Source: Pseudomonas sp. GM78 (lineage in GTDB: Bacteria; Pseudomonadota; Gammaproteobacteria; Pseudomonadales; Pseudomonadaceae). Taken from it: DNA of 35,280 bases. The notes beneath the pieces are model-generated. The model saw nothing but the letters and a program-made list of their open reading frames with translations. It ran no database searches and was not told where the DNA came from. This document shows, piece after piece, positions 28,598-35,028 of the stretch; position 1 is the first letter of the stretch, and every line of letters begins with the position of its first letter. The stretch lies in contig NZ_AKJF01000126.1 of the NCBI RefSeq assembly GCF_000282475.1, forward strand, positions 1-35,280, read 5' to 3'. Made by a program: the position numbers and the translations under genes.

Positions 28598-29917
28598 TTA
28601 GTCCGTGACGATCCGCGAATGCTTGCGGGTGTCCTTCATGGTGACATACACCAGCAACGACACGGCGATGCACGCGGTGACATACCAGTAGTAACCGGTT
28701 TCCATACCGATGCTCTTGAACCACAGCGCGATGTATTCAGCGGTGCCGCCGAAGATCGACACGGTCAGGGCATACGGCAGGCCCACGCCCAGGGCGCGGA
28801 TTTCGGTCGGGAACAGTTCGGCTTTGACTACCGCGTTGATCGAGGTGTAGCCGCTGACGATGATCAGTGCCGCCATGATCAGGAAGAACGCGCCCCACCA
28901 GGTCGTGATGGTGTGCAGGGTGGTGAGGATCGGTACGGTGAAAATCGTGCCCAGCACGCCAAAGGCGATCAGGATCGGGCGTCGACCGATCTTGTCCGAC
29001 AGGCCACCGATGATCGGTTGCAGGCACATGAACAGGAACAGGGTGGCGGCAGAGATGGTGGTGGAGTCGGAAATGCTCATGCCGACGGTGTTCACCAGGT
29101 ATTTCTGCATGTAGGTGGTGTAGGTGTAGAACGCCAGGGTACCGCCCATGGTCAGGCCGACCACGGTCATCAGTTCCTTCGGATGGCGCATCAAGGTGCG
29201 CATCGCGCTTTCCTTGGCCTTTTCCTTCTTGGTGAACGACTCGGTTTCTTCCATGCCACGACGCAGGTATAGCGCGACCACGGCACACAGCGCGCCGATG
29301 GCGAACGGGATGCGCCAGCCCCAGGCGTACAGCTCTTCGGTGGTCAGTACGTTTTGCAGGATGATCAGTACGGCCAGGGCGATGAGTTGGCCGGAGATCA
29401 GGGTCACGTACTGGAAGCTGGAGTAGAAACCGCGACGTTCCTTGGTCGCCATCTCGCTGAGGTAAGTGGCGGAGGTGCCGTATTCGCCACCGACCGACAG
29501 GCCTTGCAGCAAGCGGGCGAACACCAGCAGGATCGGCGCACCGATACCGATGATTTCATAGCCCGGGCTCAGGGCGATCAGCAGCGAGCCGAAGCACATC
29601 AGGTAGACAGAGGCCATCAAGGCCTTCTTGCGTCCGACTTTGTCGGCGTACAGGCCCATCAGCCACCCGCCGATAGGGCGCATCAGGAAGCCCACGGCGA
29701 AGATCGCAGCGGTGTTCAGCAGTTGTGCGGTGGTGTCGCCTTTGGGGAAGAAGGTCTTGGCGAAATAGAGAGAGAAAGCGGCGTAGACATACCAGTCATA
29801 CCACTCGACCATGTTGCCGACAGAACCGCTGAAGATCGATTTGATGCGGCTGGAGGTGGTTCGTTCTTTTGTCGGCGCGGCAACCGACCCACGGGGCAGG
29901 GTATTGGAGTTATCCAT
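28598..29917 (-). CDS. MHS-family MFS permease, alpha-ketoglutarate/dicarboxylate type (KgtP-like)
   Basis: A 439-aa inner-membrane symporter with 12 predicted segments. Family features are SGSVGNMVEWYDWYVYAAFS (30-49) in TM1, the loop 2-3 motif GGWLMGLYADKVGRKKAL (83-100), LQGLSVGGEYGTSATYLSE, and the second half-repeat motif GGLSDKIGRRPI. The metabolite:H+ symporter (MHS) branch includes KgtP, which imports 2-oxoglutarate. The ATG at 29917 has AGGATCC nearby. Upstream lie a sigma-54 promoter (29981-29997) and paired repeats, followed by a sigma-54 response regulator and kinase. In P. aeruginosa the related MifSR system controls 2-oxoglutarate uptake through such a permease, so I infer 2-oxoglutarate or a C4-dicarboxylate as substrate. 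Confidence 0.9.
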   Translation of the reverse strand: MDNSNTLPRGSVAAPTKERTTSSRIKSIFSGSVGNMVEWYDWYVYAAFSLYFAKTFFPKGDTTAQLLNTAAIFAVGFLMRPIGGWLMGLYADKVGRKKALMASVYLMCFGSLLIALSPGYEIIGIGAPILLVFARLLQGLSVGGEYGTSATYLSEMATKERRGFYSSFQYVTLISGQLIALAVLIILQNVLTTEELYAWGWRIPFAIGALCAVVALYLRRGMEETESFTKKEKAKESAMRTLMRHPKELMTVVGLTMGGTLAFYTYTTYMQKYLVNTVGMSISDSTTISAATLFLFMCLQPIIGGLSDKIGRRPILIAFGVLGTIFTVPILTTLHTITTWWGAFFLIMAALIIVSGYTSINAVVKAELFPTEIRALGVGLPYALTVSIFGGTAEYIALWFKSIGMETGYYWYVTACIAVSLLVYVTMKDTRKHSRIVTD

Positions 29918-29980
29918 TGAAGGATCCTTCGTCTAATTATTTTTTGTGGAGCGCGAATAAACGCAGCCTGCGGGGGCTAT

Positions 29981-29997
29981 AGCAGGAGCTGTGCCAA
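29981..29997 (-). promoter_or_regulatory. Sigma-54 (RpoN) promoter of the permease gene
   Basis: On the minus strand, TTGGCACAGCTCCTGCT has the invariant GG and GC separated by exactly ten bases (GG at 29995-29994, GC at 29983-29982), against the consensus TTGGCACGNNNNTTGCT. The expected start lies near 29970, giving a leader of about 53 nt before the ATG at 29917. Confidence 0.88.
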
Positions 29998-30038
29998 GAG
30001 GGAGAGGGCCGGTTTAGAGGGGGTGGAGCGATTTTATA

Positions 30039-30086
30039 GGCGGAAATCCGCTCACAATTGGATGAGTGCGGGCGGAAAATTGCTCA
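30039..30086. promoter_or_regulatory. Candidate tandem activator sites for the permease promoter
   Basis: Two 16-nt direct repeats, GGCGGAAATCCGCTCA (30039-30054) and GGCGGAAAATTGCTCA (30071-30086), agree at 13 of 16 positions and are 32 nt apart, three helical turns. The first contains the dyad GCGGA-AA-TCCGC. They lie about 70-115 nt upstream of the predicted start, the usual place for sigma-54 activator binding. Confidence 0.62.
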
Positions 30087-30114
30087 TGGGCTCAATGGTG
30101 ATGTTGCTTCGGCT

Positions 30115-30216
30115 GGCCCCTTCGCGGGCAAGCCCGCTCCCACAGGGACCGAGTTGAGCAAAGATTTTGTGTACGAAGCTGACCACTGTGGGAGCGGGCT
30201 TGCCCGCGAAGGGGCC
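30115..30216. repeat. REP doublet with 31-bp perfect arms
   Basis: Arms 30115-30145 and 30186-30216 of the GGGAGCGGGCTTGCCCGCGA type enclose 40 nt. It separates the permease regulatory region from the response-regulator stop codon, 10 nt away. Confidence 0.92.
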
Positions 30217-30226
30217 CGCACAGACG

Positions 30227-31552
30227 CTACAAAAACATCTCTCGGTTCAACCCATGCCGCTGCATCTTTTCATTGAACGTGCGGCGCGGCAGTTGCAGTT
30301 CTTCGAGCACCGCTTTCACATCACCCTTGTGTCGGGTCAACGCAGCGCGCAGGCACTGCGCCTCAAAGGCTTCCTGCTGCGCTGCCAGTGACTGACCCGG
30401 CTCGATGCCCGCCGGTACAGGCTCGCCAAGGCCCAACACCTGGCGCTCGGCCACGTTGGCCAGTTCGCGCACATTGCCGGGCCAGTCGTGGCTCAACAGA
30501 TGGCTCAACTGCGGCCCGCTCAACGGTGCAAAGGTGCGCCCCAGGCGCTCGGCGGCACTCTGGGCGAAGGCCTCGTACAACAACGGAATGTCTTCGCGAC
30601 GGTCGCGCAACGGTGGCAGGCGCAATTCGGCGACGTTCAAACGGTAAGCCAGGTCTTCGCGAAAACGTCCGGCCCGTGCCTCGTCGAGCAGGTCCGGCTT
30701 GGTCGCGGCGATGATGCGCAGATCTACACGAATACTCTGGTTCGAGCCCAGGCGCTCAAGCTTCTGCTCCTGCAACACCCGCAGCAATTTCACCTGCTGC
30801 GCCAGGGGCATGCTTTCGATTTCATCGAGAAACAGCGTGCCGCCATCGGCATATTCGAGCTTGCCGATGCGCTTGCCCTGGGCGCCGGTGAACGCGCCGC
30901 TTTCGTGGCCGAACAGCTCGGCCTCGAACAGCTGTTCGGGGATGGCCGCGCAGTTCAAGGCGACGAAGGGTTTATCGGCGCGTGGGCCGAAGTCGTGCAG
31001 GCAGCGGGCAACCAATTCCTTGCCGCTACCCGTTTCACCGCGGATCAAAACGTTGACCGGCAACGCCGCCAGGTCCAGAACCTGTCGACGTAGCGTTTGC
31101 AAGCCCCGGGATACCCCCAGCAGCCTCGCGTCGAGTTTGGCGCGGTTGTCGGCCTGCTCGTGCAAGGCGCGGTTTTCCAGCACCAACCGGCGCTTGTCCA
31201 GCGCGCGGCGAAGGCTGCCAAGCAGGGTCTGCGGGCTGAAGGGTTTTTCAAGGAAGTCGTAGGCGCCATCGCGCATCGCATCGACGGCCATCGGCACGTC
31301 GCCATGGCCGGTCAGCAGGATCACCGGCAAGTCGGCATCGCGGCGCTGGACTTCGGCCAGCAGTTCCAGCCCGGACATGCCGGGCATGCGCACGTCGCTG
31401 AGGATCACGCCGGGGTAATGCGCGGGCAGTTGCGCCAGGCATTCATCGGCGCGGCTGAACAGTTGCACCTGGAAACCCGACAGGCTCAGCCATTGTTCGA
31501 CGGCGCTGCGGATGCTGCTTTCGTCGTCGACCACCATCACTGAATTGAGCAT
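30227..31552 (-). CDS. Sigma-54-dependent response regulator (DctD/MifR type)
   Basis: A 441-aa NtrC-family activator. The receiver domain (1-120) has phospho-acceptor Asp53 (LSDVRMPGMSG), acidic Asp9/Asp10 and Lys103. The AAA+ domain (about 145-375) has Walker A GETGSGKE (172-179), the sigma-54 contact loop GAFTGA (219-224), and Walker B TLFLDE (239-244). A Fis-type HTH ends the protein (GDVKAVLEELQLPRRTFNEKMQRHG). It starts at the ATG at 31552, inside the kinase gene, so the two are coupled by a 16-nt overlap. Its likely target is the adjacent permease promoter, which carries the matching sigma-54 site. Assignment to MifR rather than DctD rests on that neighbour. Confidence 0.9.
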   Translation of the reverse strand: MLNSVMVVDDESSIRSAVEQWLSLSGFQVQLFSRADECLAQLPAHYPGVILSDVRMPGMSGLELLAEVQRRDADLPVILLTGHGDVPMAVDAMRDGAYDFLEKPFSPQTLLGSLRRALDKRRLVLENRALHEQADNRAKLDARLLGVSRGLQTLRRQVLDLAALPVNVLIRGETGSGKELVARCLHDFGPRADKPFVALNCAAIPEQLFEAELFGHESGAFTGAQGKRIGKLEYADGGTLFLDEIESMPLAQQVKLLRVLQEQKLERLGSNQSIRVDLRIIAATKPDLLDEARAGRFREDLAYRLNVAELRLPPLRDRREDIPLLYEAFAQSAAERLGRTFAPLSGPQLSHLLSHDWPGNVRELANVAERQVLGLGEPVPAGIEPGQSLAAQQEAFEAQCLRAALTRHKGDVKAVLEELQLPRRTFNEKMQRHGLNREMFL

Positions 31553-33312
31553 GTGCCAGGGGCCTCCGTATCGATAGGCAAGGTGAGTGTGAACACCGCG
31601 CCGTTGTCGTGATTGTCGGCGCTCAGGCGTCCGCCCGATTCGTGAACGATGGCAAAGGATACGGCCAGACCGATGCCCAGGCCATCGCCCACCGGTTTGG
31701 TGGTGAAAAAGGGATCGAAGACCTTCGACAGGTTTTCTTCGGCGATGCCACCACCGTTGTCGATGACGCTCAATCGCCACAGCTGTTCGTCGGCTTCGAG
31801 GCGGATTTCCAGGCGTTTGCAGGGTTTATCCTGCATCGCATCCAGGGCGTTGCGCAGCAGATTGATCAGCACCTGTTCCAGACGAATCGCATCGCCGCGT
31901 ACCCACGCCGGGCGCGTCAGGTGCAACACGGTGCTGACCTGTTCGTCGCGCAGGCGAGTGTCGAGCAGCTCAAGGGATTGGTCCACCACCGCCGCCAGGT
32001 CCAGGCGTTCACGCAGGCCGCTGGGGCTTTTGCGGGCGAAGGTTTTCAGGTGGCCGGTGAGGGCGGCCATGCGCGTCAGCATGTCATCCACCGGTTTGAG
32101 TGCCTTGTAGGCGTCGTCGACCCGGCCGTGTTCGAGCAGCAGGCGCAAGGTTGCCAGCTGCATGCGCTGGGCGGTCAGCGGTTGATTGATTTCATGGGCC
32201 AGCGCCGCCGACATCTGGCCCAGGGCCGCGAGTTTGGCCGATTGCACCAGGCCGTCCTGGGCGGTGCGCAGGTCGCGGGTGCGTTCTTCCACCAGCTGTT
32301 CGAGTTCTTCGCGACTGCGCTGGCGCATTTTCGCCAGGCGCCAGCGCTGGTTGAGGAACAGCAGCAGGAACACCAGCGTCAGCCATAGGCCGGCCGCGGC
32401 GAGGGCGGCGTTGCGACTGTCTTCGAACGCCACTTGTGGACGACGCAGCAGGTGCAGCGTCCAGCCCTCGGCGGTCAGCGGCAGGGACTCCCACAGGTAA
32501 TCCGTTTTGCCGTCCGGCCCGTCGACCCGCGCCAGTTCACTGTTGTCGTCGAAGCGGCGCAGCGATTGATAGTCGAGCAGCGTCAGCGGCTGCTTGTCGT
32601 ATTGGCGGGTGGCCTTGAGCTCGGCCTGATCGCTGTCGCTCAGCGGTTTCAATTGGCGATAGCGCCAGCCCGGCTGATTGGCGATGAAGATGATGCCACG
32701 GGCATCGCTGACCAGCAGCGTGTCGCTGCCCTGGCGCCATTCGCGTTCCAGCTCGGGAAACTCGAGCTTTACCACCATGGCGCCGAGAAACTGCCCGTCG
32801 TCGTTGGTCACAGCGCTGGACAGGAAGTAACCCGGTATCCCGCTGGTCACCCCCACGGCATAAAAACGCCCGGTGCCCTGGGTGCGGGTCTGGTTGAAGT
32901 AGGGGCGAAAACCATAGTTATGGCCGACGTAACTGCTGGGCAAACGCCAGTTGCTCGCCGCCACGGCCAGGCCAGTACGATCGAGCAGTTCCAGGGTCGA
33001 GGACTCGGCGGCGCCGTTGATCTTTTCCAGCTTGCGGTTAAGCACCTCCTGTTGTTCGGGGCTAACCGGGCCCTTGAGTGCATCACGCAATTGAGGGTCC
33101 AGAGCCAGCACCGAGGGCAGGGCGCGGTAGCGTTCGATCAGGGTATGCAGCGACGTGGCGTACAGCGCCAATTGCTGATTGGCACGGGCCGCGTCTTCAA
33201 CCAGGGATTGGCGTACGGTGTGGCGCATGGCCAGGGTGGCAGCAATGGCGGCACCGGCGATGATCAGCACGGTGTACAGCGCCAGGCGCAGGGATCGGGA
33301 AGTCGGCAGCAT
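31537..33312 (-). CDS. Sensor histidine kinase (DctB/MifS type)
   Basis: A 591-aa membrane kinase: TM1 ([19 protein letters not shown], about 10-28), a large periplasmic double-Cache-like sensor region (about 32-300, with [33 protein letters not shown], as in DctB), and TM2 ([20 protein letters not shown], about 302-321). A coiled linker follows, then the H-box LAHEINQPL with His373, N-box [10 protein letters not shown], and G-boxes DNGGGI and [10 protein letters not shown]. DctB-type kinases sense C4-dicarboxylates, MifS-type 2-oxoglutarate. I used the ATG at 33312 ([15 protein letters not shown]); the ribosome site is poor and longer frames exist upstream. It overlaps the regulator by 16 nt. 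Confidence 0.88.
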
Positions 33313-33445
33313 GCAGTGGACAACAGGTGAAAATGAGGGGGAGCACCATACCATGTGGACGGCAGTCATCTCTCGCCCGAACCCATGCGCTGGCGCGGGT
33401 TTTACCGTGATGGTCGATTGCAGGCGTTTCAGCTTGTTACCAGCC

Positions 33446-33504: not shown

Positions 33505-35028
33505 TTATTGCACTTCTACCGCCAGGCTTTCACTGATCTTTTGCTGCCAGATGGCAGGACCGGTGATGTGTACCGACTCGCCCTTGCTGTCGACTGCAAC
33601 AGTCACAGGCATGTCTTTCACGTCGAACTCGTAGATGGCTTCCATCCCCAGTTCAGCGAACGCCACTACGCGGGACTTCTTGATCGCTTGCGCCACCAGG
33701 TAAGCCGCGCCGCCCACTGCCATCAGGTAAACGGCCTTGTGGTCCTTGATCGCGTCGATCGCGGTCGGGCCACGCTCGGATTTGCCGATCATGCCCAGCA
33801 GGCCGGTTTGCTCGAGGATCTGACGGGTGAACTTGTCCATCCGCGTTGCGGTAGTAGGACCGGCAGGGCCAACCACTTCTTCGCGCACCGGATCGACCGG
33901 GCCGACGTAATAGATGAAGCGACCTTTCAGGTCCACCGGCAGGGTTTCACCCTTGTTCAGCATCTCGACCATGCGCTTGTGCGCGGCGTCGCGACCGGTG
34001 AGCATCTTGCCGTTGAGCAGCACGGTTTCGCCCGGCTTCCAGCTCTGCACTTCTTCCGGGGTCAGGGTGTCGAGGTTGACGCGACGGGCCGACGGGCCGG
34101 CTTCCCAGACGATTTCCGGGTAGGCGTCCAGCGGTGGCGCCTCCAGGGAGGCCGGGCCGGAACCGTCAAGCACGAAGTGCGCGTGACGGGTGGCGGCGCA
34201 GTTCGGGATCATGCACACCGGCAGGGACGCGGCGTGGGTCGGGTAATCCATGATCTTCACGTCGAGCACGGTGGTCAGGCCACCGAGGCCCTGGGCGCCG
34301 ATGCCCAGTTGGTTGACCTTCTCGAACAGCTCCAGGCGCATTTCTTCGATGCGGTTCTGCGGGCCGCGGGCTTTGAGCTCATGAATGTCGATGGATTCCA
34401 TCAACACTTCCTTGGCCATCACCGCGGCTTTCTCGGCGGTGCCGCCGATGCCGATACCGAGCATGCCCGGTGGGCACCAGCCGGCGCCCATGGTCGGAAC
34501 GGTCTTCAGAACCCAGTCGACGATCGAGTCGGACGGGTTGAGCATGGCCATTTTCGACTTGTTCTCGGAACCACCGCCCTTGGCCGCCACGTCCACTTCC
34601 ACGGTGTTACCCGGAACGATGGAGTAGTGGATAACGGCCGGGGTGTTGTCCTTGGTGTTTTTACGAGCGCCCGCCGGGTCGGCGAGGATCGAGGCACGCA
34701 GGACGTTTTCCGGCAGGTTGTAAGCCCGGCGCACGCCTTCGTTGATCATGTCGTCCAGGCCCATGGTGGCGCCATCCCAACGTACGTCCATGCCTACACG
34801 CACGAACACGGTGACGATGCCGGTGTCCTGGCAGATCGGGCGGTGGCCGGTGGCGCACATCCGTGAGTTGATCAGGATTTGCGCCATCGAATCGCGGGCC
34901 GCTGGCGATTCTTCGCGCAGGTAGGCCTCGTGCATCGCCTGGATGAAATCCACGGGGTGGTAGTAGGAAATGAACTGCAGGGCGTCGGCAACGCTCTGAA
35001 TCAGGTCGTCTTGCTTGATCACGGTCAT
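33505..35028 (-). CDS. Class I fumarate hydratase ([4Fe-4S], FumA/FumB-like)
   Basis: This 507-aa iron-sulphur fumarase interconverts fumarate and malate in the TCA cycle. The N-terminal domain has GHRPICQDTGIVTVF (Cys66), GAGWCPPGMLGIGIGG (Cys185) and IPNCAATRHAHF (Cys277), the likely three cluster ligands of class I enzymes. The C-terminal domain has GRDAAHKRM and VGPAGPTTATRMDKF. The ATG at 35028 has GAGGAG 8 nt upstream. The cluster is oxygen- and iron-sensitive, so pseudomonads usually also have a class II FumC elsewhere. It lies next to the dicarboxylate-type two-component system but has its own terminator and leader. Confidence 0.95.
   Translation of the reverse strand: MTVIKQDDLIQSVADALQFISYYHPVDFIQAMHEAYLREESPAARDSMAQILINSRMCATGHRPICQDTGIVTVFVRVGMDVRWDGATMGLDDMINEGVRRAYNLPENVLRASILADPAGARKNTKDNTPAVIHYSIVPGNTVEVDVAAKGGGSENKSKMAMLNPSDSIVDWVLKTVPTMGAGWCPPGMLGIGIGGTAEKAAVMAKEVLMESIDIHELKARGPQNRIEEMRLELFEKVNQLGIGAQGLGGLTTVLDVKIMDYPTHAASLPVCMIPNCAATRHAHFVLDGSGPASLEAPPLDAYPEIVWEAGPSARRVNLDTLTPEEVQSWKPGETVLLNGKMLTGRDAAHKRMVEMLNKGETLPVDLKGRFIYYVGPVDPVREEVVGPAGPTTATRMDKFTRQILEQTGLLGMIGKSERGPTAIDAIKDHKAVYLMAVGGAAYLVAQAIKKSRVVAFAELGMEAIYEFDVKDMPVTVAVDSKGESVHITGPAIWQQKISESLAVEVQ

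Follow-up and report, generated by a model that had tools for sequence, protein, structure and literature searches.

In Pseudomonas aeruginosa, growth on alpha-ketoglutarate (2-oxoglutarate) requires the MifS-MifR two-component system together with RpoN; expression of the transporter gene PA5530 in alpha-ketoglutarate drops without mifS or mifR, and growth returns in both types of mutant when PA5530 is driven by a different promoter (PMC4482717, in its sections on this system). The sections on the promoter also print GATCGGCGGATTTCC for PA5530, with an unknown role. In Rhizobium, the DctB-DctD system works with two DctD sites, given as TGTGCGgaaatCCGCACA, in front of dctA (PMC11077940, in its passage on the site). 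A third system, KguS-KguR/c5038 of uropathogenic Escherichia coli, is likewise described, in the relevant parts of the source, as a two-component system for alpha-ketoglutarate that controls a transport gene cluster directly, with a proposed site TGTGCG-N8-CGCACA (PMC3694859), and c5038 is reported in a passage of PMC5318444 to be sigma-54 dependent; we liken this system to ours by its description and not by regulator sequence. Here we analyze a related locus in Pseudomonas sp. GM78, located on a stretch of 35,280 nucleotides (contig NZ_AKJF01000126.1, positions 1 to 35,280 of the forward strand; hereafter the window), in which a paired DNA dyad lies upstream of the sigma-54 promoter of a KgtP-type permease gene, next to genes for an NtrC/DctD-type activator and a sensor kinase.

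On the minus strand, the order is kinase, activator, a 309-bp intergenic region, and permease (Table 1). As in the MifSR/PA5530 system, a kinase and an NtrC/DctD-type activator are combined with a sigma-54 promoter of an alpha-ketoglutarate transporter gene, with the difference that PA5530 of strain PAO1 lies apart from mifRS (PA5511/PA5512), whereas activator and permease are adjacent in the window (PMC4482717, in the parts concerned). We propose, with a probability of about 0.87, that the locus is a MifSR-type two-component circuit in which the adjacent activator acts through two dyads on the sigma-54 promoter of the permease. The membrane kinase would sense an external substrate, most likely 2-oxoglutarate, and phosphorylate the activator; activator dimers would then occupy both 20-bp dyads (ATNRGCGGAWWTCCGCYNAT, 32 bp apart on the same DNA face), and looping would bring the assembled AAA+ ring into contact with the sigma-54 RNA polymerase at the -24/-12 element, upon which permease transcription would start. 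Such a circuit is of a known kind; what is new is the sharper definition of the operator and the transporter exchange behind the enhancer.

A first-pass annotation of this DNA had already described a self-contained sigma-54 circuit, and the promoter, the paired sites, and the adjacent activator and kinase genes support this. The near-consensus -24/-12 element that it reported at the permease has the GG-N10-GC arrangement and fits TTGGCACNNNNNTTGCW at 11 of 12 scored positions (the C of GC was set at -12 to predict the start), domains and translation agree with the GAFTGA activator and kinase that it named as neighbors, and the MifSR precedent that it invoked holds in print (PMC4482717, in the sections cited above). 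The NCBIfam description of NF007710/PRK10406, the model matched by the permease, is MFS family transporter and nothing narrower. We take PRK10406 to be KgtP, and the permease is a probable 2-oxoglutarate importer.

Table 1. Coordinates of the features in the window; dyad centers are relative to the predicted transcription start.
Feature	Position	Strand	Remarks
Sensor histidine kinase, presumed partner	31537..33315	-	Pfam HisKA and HATPase_c; dCache_1 match below the Pfam cut-off
NtrC/DctD-type response regulator	30227..31552	-	Receiver, AAA+ with GAFTGA, Fis-type HTH; C-terminal helix PRRTFNEKMQRHGL
Distal 20-bp dyad ATGAGCAATTTTCCGCCCGC	30068..30087	-	Center -107.5; one half degenerate
Proximal 20-bp dyad GTGAGCGGATTTCCGCCTAT	30036..30055	-	Center -75.5
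Sigma-54 -24/-12 promoter TTGGCACAGCTCCTGCT	29981..29997	-	GG-N10-GC; predicted start ~29970
A-rich leader element AAAAATAA	29937..29944	-	Agrees with the Crc/Hfq-type AANAANAA motif; shortly before the permease start
KgtP-type MFS permease, target gene	28598..29917	-	Pfam Sugar_tr and MFS_1; NCBIfam NF007710/PRK10406 above cut-off
Arm 1 of 34-nt inverted repeat	30112..30145	.	Between activator gene and enhancer; outside the circuit
Arm 2 of 34-nt inverted repeat	30186..30219	.	Same intergenic region as arm 1

The first-pass annotation had also noted two 13/16-identical repeats three helical turns apart, and it had their coordinates and spacing right. The repeats, GGCGGAAATCCGCTCA (30039-30054) and GGCGGAAAATTGCTCA (30071-30086), are spaced 32 bp from start to start and are the only direct-repeat family of at least 14 nt found within the intergenic region. 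Alignment with other species revealed that the repeat unit is a 20-bp mirror-symmetric dyad that is present twice. Across 63 aligned pairs, the columns without any variation form GC..GC in both dyads, and the linker shows no conservation. The two dyads lie upstream of the sigma-54 promoter with the core GCGGA-N2-TCCGC, which is complete in the proximal copy alone in the window. The motif GGCGGAAANYYGCTCA that had been offered as the unit is thus an asymmetric slice through this dyad, and it proved a poor string for the genome scan that had been suggested (95 matches at ≤2 mismatches versus 43 for the reversed control); without mismatch, the 16-mer is present in its own genome at the two window sites alone. 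The single-dyad string AGCGGANNTCCGCT was rejected as well, with 306 matches per strand at ≤2 mismatches, fewer than its reversed control (409). The further suggestion that the repeats are the motif of the adjacent regulator is only partly revised: by conservation and co-occurrence they appear to behave in this way, with the 20-bp dyad as the probable unit.

The claim that the motif is not a described site was too strong, as its core occurs in the rhizobial DctD site (PMC11077940, in its passage on the site) and 14 of the 20 bp are printed for PA5530 (PMC4482717, in its text on the promoter). GATCGGCGGATTTCC fits two g9 loci (L126 and L127) at 14 of 15 letters and covers the left 14 bp of their strong dyad; the 20-bp dyad and the pairing at fixed spacing are not in the text on the promoter in PMC4482717. 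Two upstream sites, sigma-54, a dicarboxylate transporter, and the dyad core GCGGAAATCCGC are common to our locus and to rhizobial DctB-DctD/dctA, whereas the rhizobial outer half-site is TGTGCGG and the transporter of the SDF family, as compared with TNRGCGG and MFS here (PMC11077940, in the same passage). Window-type dyads do not match the full rhizobial sequence, since the outer half-sites differ, and the target is an MFS gene and not dctA (SDF family), which sets the locus apart from the DctBD-dctA systems. Because the core is shared with rhizobial DctD and recurs at a DctA-like gene of the same genome (see below), we place the site in the DctD class, where its outer bases and spacing are distinctive, and do not regard it as an unrelated new motif. 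Among the listed matches of open-licence papers with core strings, PMC11077940 is the one that deals with a sigma-54 activator, and the main text of PMC13086498 contains no occurrence of MifR, PA5511, or PA5530.

Conservation of the pair was studied at the promoters of related permease genes. An activator search kept 80 loci from at least 596 candidates; among the matches listed, 43 of the 80 carry the permease downstream of the activator on the same strand, at a distance of up to 1.1 kb. Within this scope, the intergenic regions of the window and of these 43 relatives contain a pair 31-34 bp apart with ≤4 core mismatches per site in 40 of 44 cases, and a pair with ≤5 mismatches in total in 37 of 44, versus 0 of 4400 dinucleotide shuffles. 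Together with 29 permease loci from family genomes, this gave 73 permease promoters, two of which duplicate others (71 distinct). A strong pair is present at 65 of the 73 (63 of the 71 distinct), with a spacing of 32 bp in 52 and 33 bp in 13, and the GG-N10-GC element is present in all 73, at a score of 9 to 11 of 12; conservation of both elements was the check that the first-pass annotation had named for itself, and its reading was not refuted by this outcome. Of these 65 promoters, 45 have the proximal center at -76 to -78, 11 have it near -88, and nine at -132 to -214. The position of the pair therefore drifts while its spacing stays constant, the behavior expected of an enhancer. As the matrix that scored the 73 promoters had been trained on those same promoters, the shuffle test and the test with TAXI genes described below are more independent.

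Across a family sample of 79 genomes, in which activator orthologs have ≥63% identity (other relatives ≤58%) and permease orthologs ≥64%, the activator ortholog is present in 50 and the permease ortholog in 33, all 33 being among the 50. Seventeen genomes thus have the activator without the permease and none the permease without the activator (Fisher p 5e-10; this and the following p values are indicative only, because the genomes are not independent of one another). A profile of the pair based on sequence alone, with 63 training rows that include the window, was run against the 79 genomes with strict filters. Where the activator is present, 43 of 50 genomes had a best match with an expectation value (E) below 0.001; where it is absent, 0 of 29 did (p 3e-15). 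Pairs from 22 of those 43 genomes sat in the training set; outside training, the counts are 21 of 28 versus 0 of 29 (p 6e-10). The best match of three genomes (G008, G049, and G060) lies beside a DctD-like paralog activator and not beside a transporter, and without them 18 of 28 versus 0 of 29 remain outside training (p 4e-8). At E ≤ 0.1, a profile match lies upstream of 30 of the 33 permease orthologs.

The site also stays with the permease when the genes are separated. In six of the seven g9 genomes, the activator ortholog (71-73% identity) is away from the permease, which is >250 kb distant or on a different contig and keeps a strong dyad upstream. The neighbors of the activator in two g9 genomes presumably correspond, as judged by eye, to the PA5516-5518 neighborhood. 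In P. tremae, the profile pointed to a KgtP gene (88% identity) that is preceded by a pair and lies ~6 kb downstream of the activator; the profile also led to a KgtP gene in P. folii, which is uninformative on the separation of the two genes because its contig ends just after the activator.

Within its own genome, the window promoter scored E 3.2e-6 with the pair profile, in which the window is one of the 63 training rows, and the runner-up 0.095. A matrix scan of 20 loci of this genome found a 32-bp pair at one, the window; these loci comprised 14 of the 15 around exact GCGGAWWTCCGC matches, two paralog regions, a DctA-like region, and three stretches at permease paralogs (two overlapping at a 56% paralog and one at a 50% paralog). 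The recognition helix reads PRRTFNEKM in the window regulator and PRRTLNEKM (seven) or PRRTLNQKM (two) in nine related regulators, so that PRRT[LF]N[EQ]KM is common to all ten; the nearest two paralogs of the same genome have PRKTLHDKL and AKTTLFDKV. These observations make it very probable that the paired dyad is the DNA site of the MifSR-type system, bound by the adjacent regulator.

The genomes with the activator and without the permease offered a view of what else the pair may control. A gene for a TAXI-family TRAP receptor is present in 16 of these 17 genomes (membership of TIGR02122/PF16868 was checked for the query and some relatives), and the pair lies upstream of it in 15 of the 16 (matrix; profile at E ≤ 0.1). 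Nine genomes have both KgtP and TAXI, and in these the pair precedes TAXI in two, both of genus g4, and is missing in seven; in genus g4, TAXI carries the pair and KgtP a single dyad. None of three genomes with TAXI and without an activator ortholog has a pair before TAXI (0/3). Grouped by KgtP presence, the pair thus precedes TAXI in 15 of 16 versus 2 of 12 (p 5e-5). An earlier grouping (17 of 18 versus 0 of 10) was dropped because the genomes had been sorted by the site itself. In six g15 genomes, the TAXI gene is on another contig or >200 kb from the activator and the pair is kept. Three Stutzerimonas genomes gave the same TAXI result, one of them showing the same places as G031 and probably being that genome. 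The pair also lies before another MFS gene adjoining the activator in G033, G044, G056, and, more weakly, G017, and in an alphaproteobacterial metagenome-assembled genome (L057) a strong dyad with a weak partner and a 12/12 promoter precedes dctA.

Roden et al. 2023, quoted in a passage of PMC11574862, reported an alpha-ketoglutarate-specific TAXI system in Proteus mirabilis, which makes a functional exchange of transporters plausible. On balance, we favor the view that one 2-oxoglutarate sensor-regulator pair with its two-dyad enhancer is constant in the Pseudomonadaceae while the importer is exchanged, being KgtP in some genera, a TAXI-type TRAP transporter in others, and a second type of MFS transporter in a third set. 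Based on the fixed operator in front of them, these TAXI systems are predicted to import 2-oxoglutarate.

DctD-type dyads occur elsewhere in the same genomes. On a contig other than that of the window, GGCGGATATCCGCC and GGCGGAAATCCGCC lie 42 bp from each other before a 10/12 sigma-54 element, GTGGCACGGGCTTTGCG, and a gene that we named DctA-like by eye (L168:1760-1910, contig C15); the core is that of the window dyads and the spacing another. Both of these dyads recur, with a sigma-54 element, in another genome of the genus (L270). In g9 and g12 (L258, L259, L260, and L261), visual inspection showed two dyads, similar but imperfect, directly downstream of a DctD-like paralog; with the sigma-54 element that is also there, they are probably that paralog's own target promoter. 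Further profile matches in genus g4 are L267 (G020 contig C5) and L268 (G003 contig C32); at L267, two similar dyads, again judged by eye, precede TTGGCACAAGCATTGCG.

An alternative is that another DctD-family activator, for example the DctD that controls dctA, is the main protein at the window dyads, with the permease belonging to a broader C4/C5-dicarboxylate regulon in which the adjacent activator is one of several inputs. The core GCGGAAATCCGC that equals the core of the rhizobial site (PMC11077940, in the passage cited), the dyads before the DctA-like gene, and the g9 and g12 profile matches just downstream of the DctD-like paralog all speak for this, but the site tracks the activator ortholog: none of the 29 genomes without it reaches E < 0.001, though 17 of them hold a 51-57% relative. 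Moreover, the spacing and the outer bases differ (32 bp and ATN..NAT as compared with 42 bp in the DctA-like promoter), as do the C-terminal helices of the activator orthologs and the own-genome paralogs, and we consider this explanation unlikely. Less probable still is that the repeats are no regulatory protein sites but leftovers of common descent, repeated elements, or a hairpin or terminator in the RNA of the activator gene. A read-through transcript could fold into a short hairpin at each dyad, and the intergenic region also contains a REP-like inverted repeat; however, the dyads and their spacing are conserved and the linker is not, the pair shifts relative to the promoter, it also precedes unrelated transporter genes, and no T run was seen directly after either window dyad.

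Several observations weigh against control by the adjacent activator through two dyads. The distal dyad of the window is the weaker one (matrix score of 16.1 bits versus 27.2), and a strong pair is absent at eight of the 73 permease promoters. Six of these exceptions are g9 loci with one strong dyad, where the candidate partner 31 bp away differs at 7-8 of 18 positions and may not be a site at all; the other two, from g4, have a single dyad at the permease. The permease orthologs of G003, G020, and G056 have no profile match upstream, and the genomes of Modicisalibacter (L062) and Mangrovitalea (L066) gave none, although L062 has a matrix pair; TAXI of G017 has one dyad and no profile match. 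The best E among the 29 genomes without the activator, 0.00138, is near the threshold and on a par with those of three genomes with it (G015, G063, and G076), to which the dependence among genomes noted above is to be added. Cross-binding is possible, because DctD-type paralogs use the same core.

The permease leader carries a further conserved element. In 61 of the 73 permease leaders, a AANAANAA-type motif lies no more than 50 nt from the start codon, against a mean of 1.8 and a maximum of 8 in 200 mononucleotide shuffles, and this agrees with the Crc signature noted in the paper on PA5530 (PMC4482717). Given this frequency, catabolite control is probably a conserved second layer on the permease.

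Other features of the window appear to lie outside the circuit. The arms of the 34-nt inverted repeat are 97% complementary and are placed between the activator stop codon and the enhancer. We take them to be a repetitive extragenic palindromic (REP-like) pair; it may insulate the activator gene from the permease gene, and it was weighed and set aside as the real signal of the intergenic region. The class I fumarase gene upstream of the kinase (33505-35025) was dropped as a part of the circuit, because among the matches listed only 15 of the 80 activator-search loci have a fumarase gene within their 6-kb flank. A DNA affinity purification sequencing (DAP-seq) survey of P. aeruginosa response regulators, reportedly by Trouillon in 2021, may contain a MifR motif.

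A vague motif has thus become a defined operator for this class of sigma-54 activator, of which we found in the open-licence literature only a partial motif without a function. TAXI-TRAP transporters are called poorly understood (PMC11574862, in the passage concerned), and the enhancer suggests a route to assigning their substrates. The locus also provides a natural test of how two related activators with a common core site, this one and DctD, keep their targets separate in one cell.

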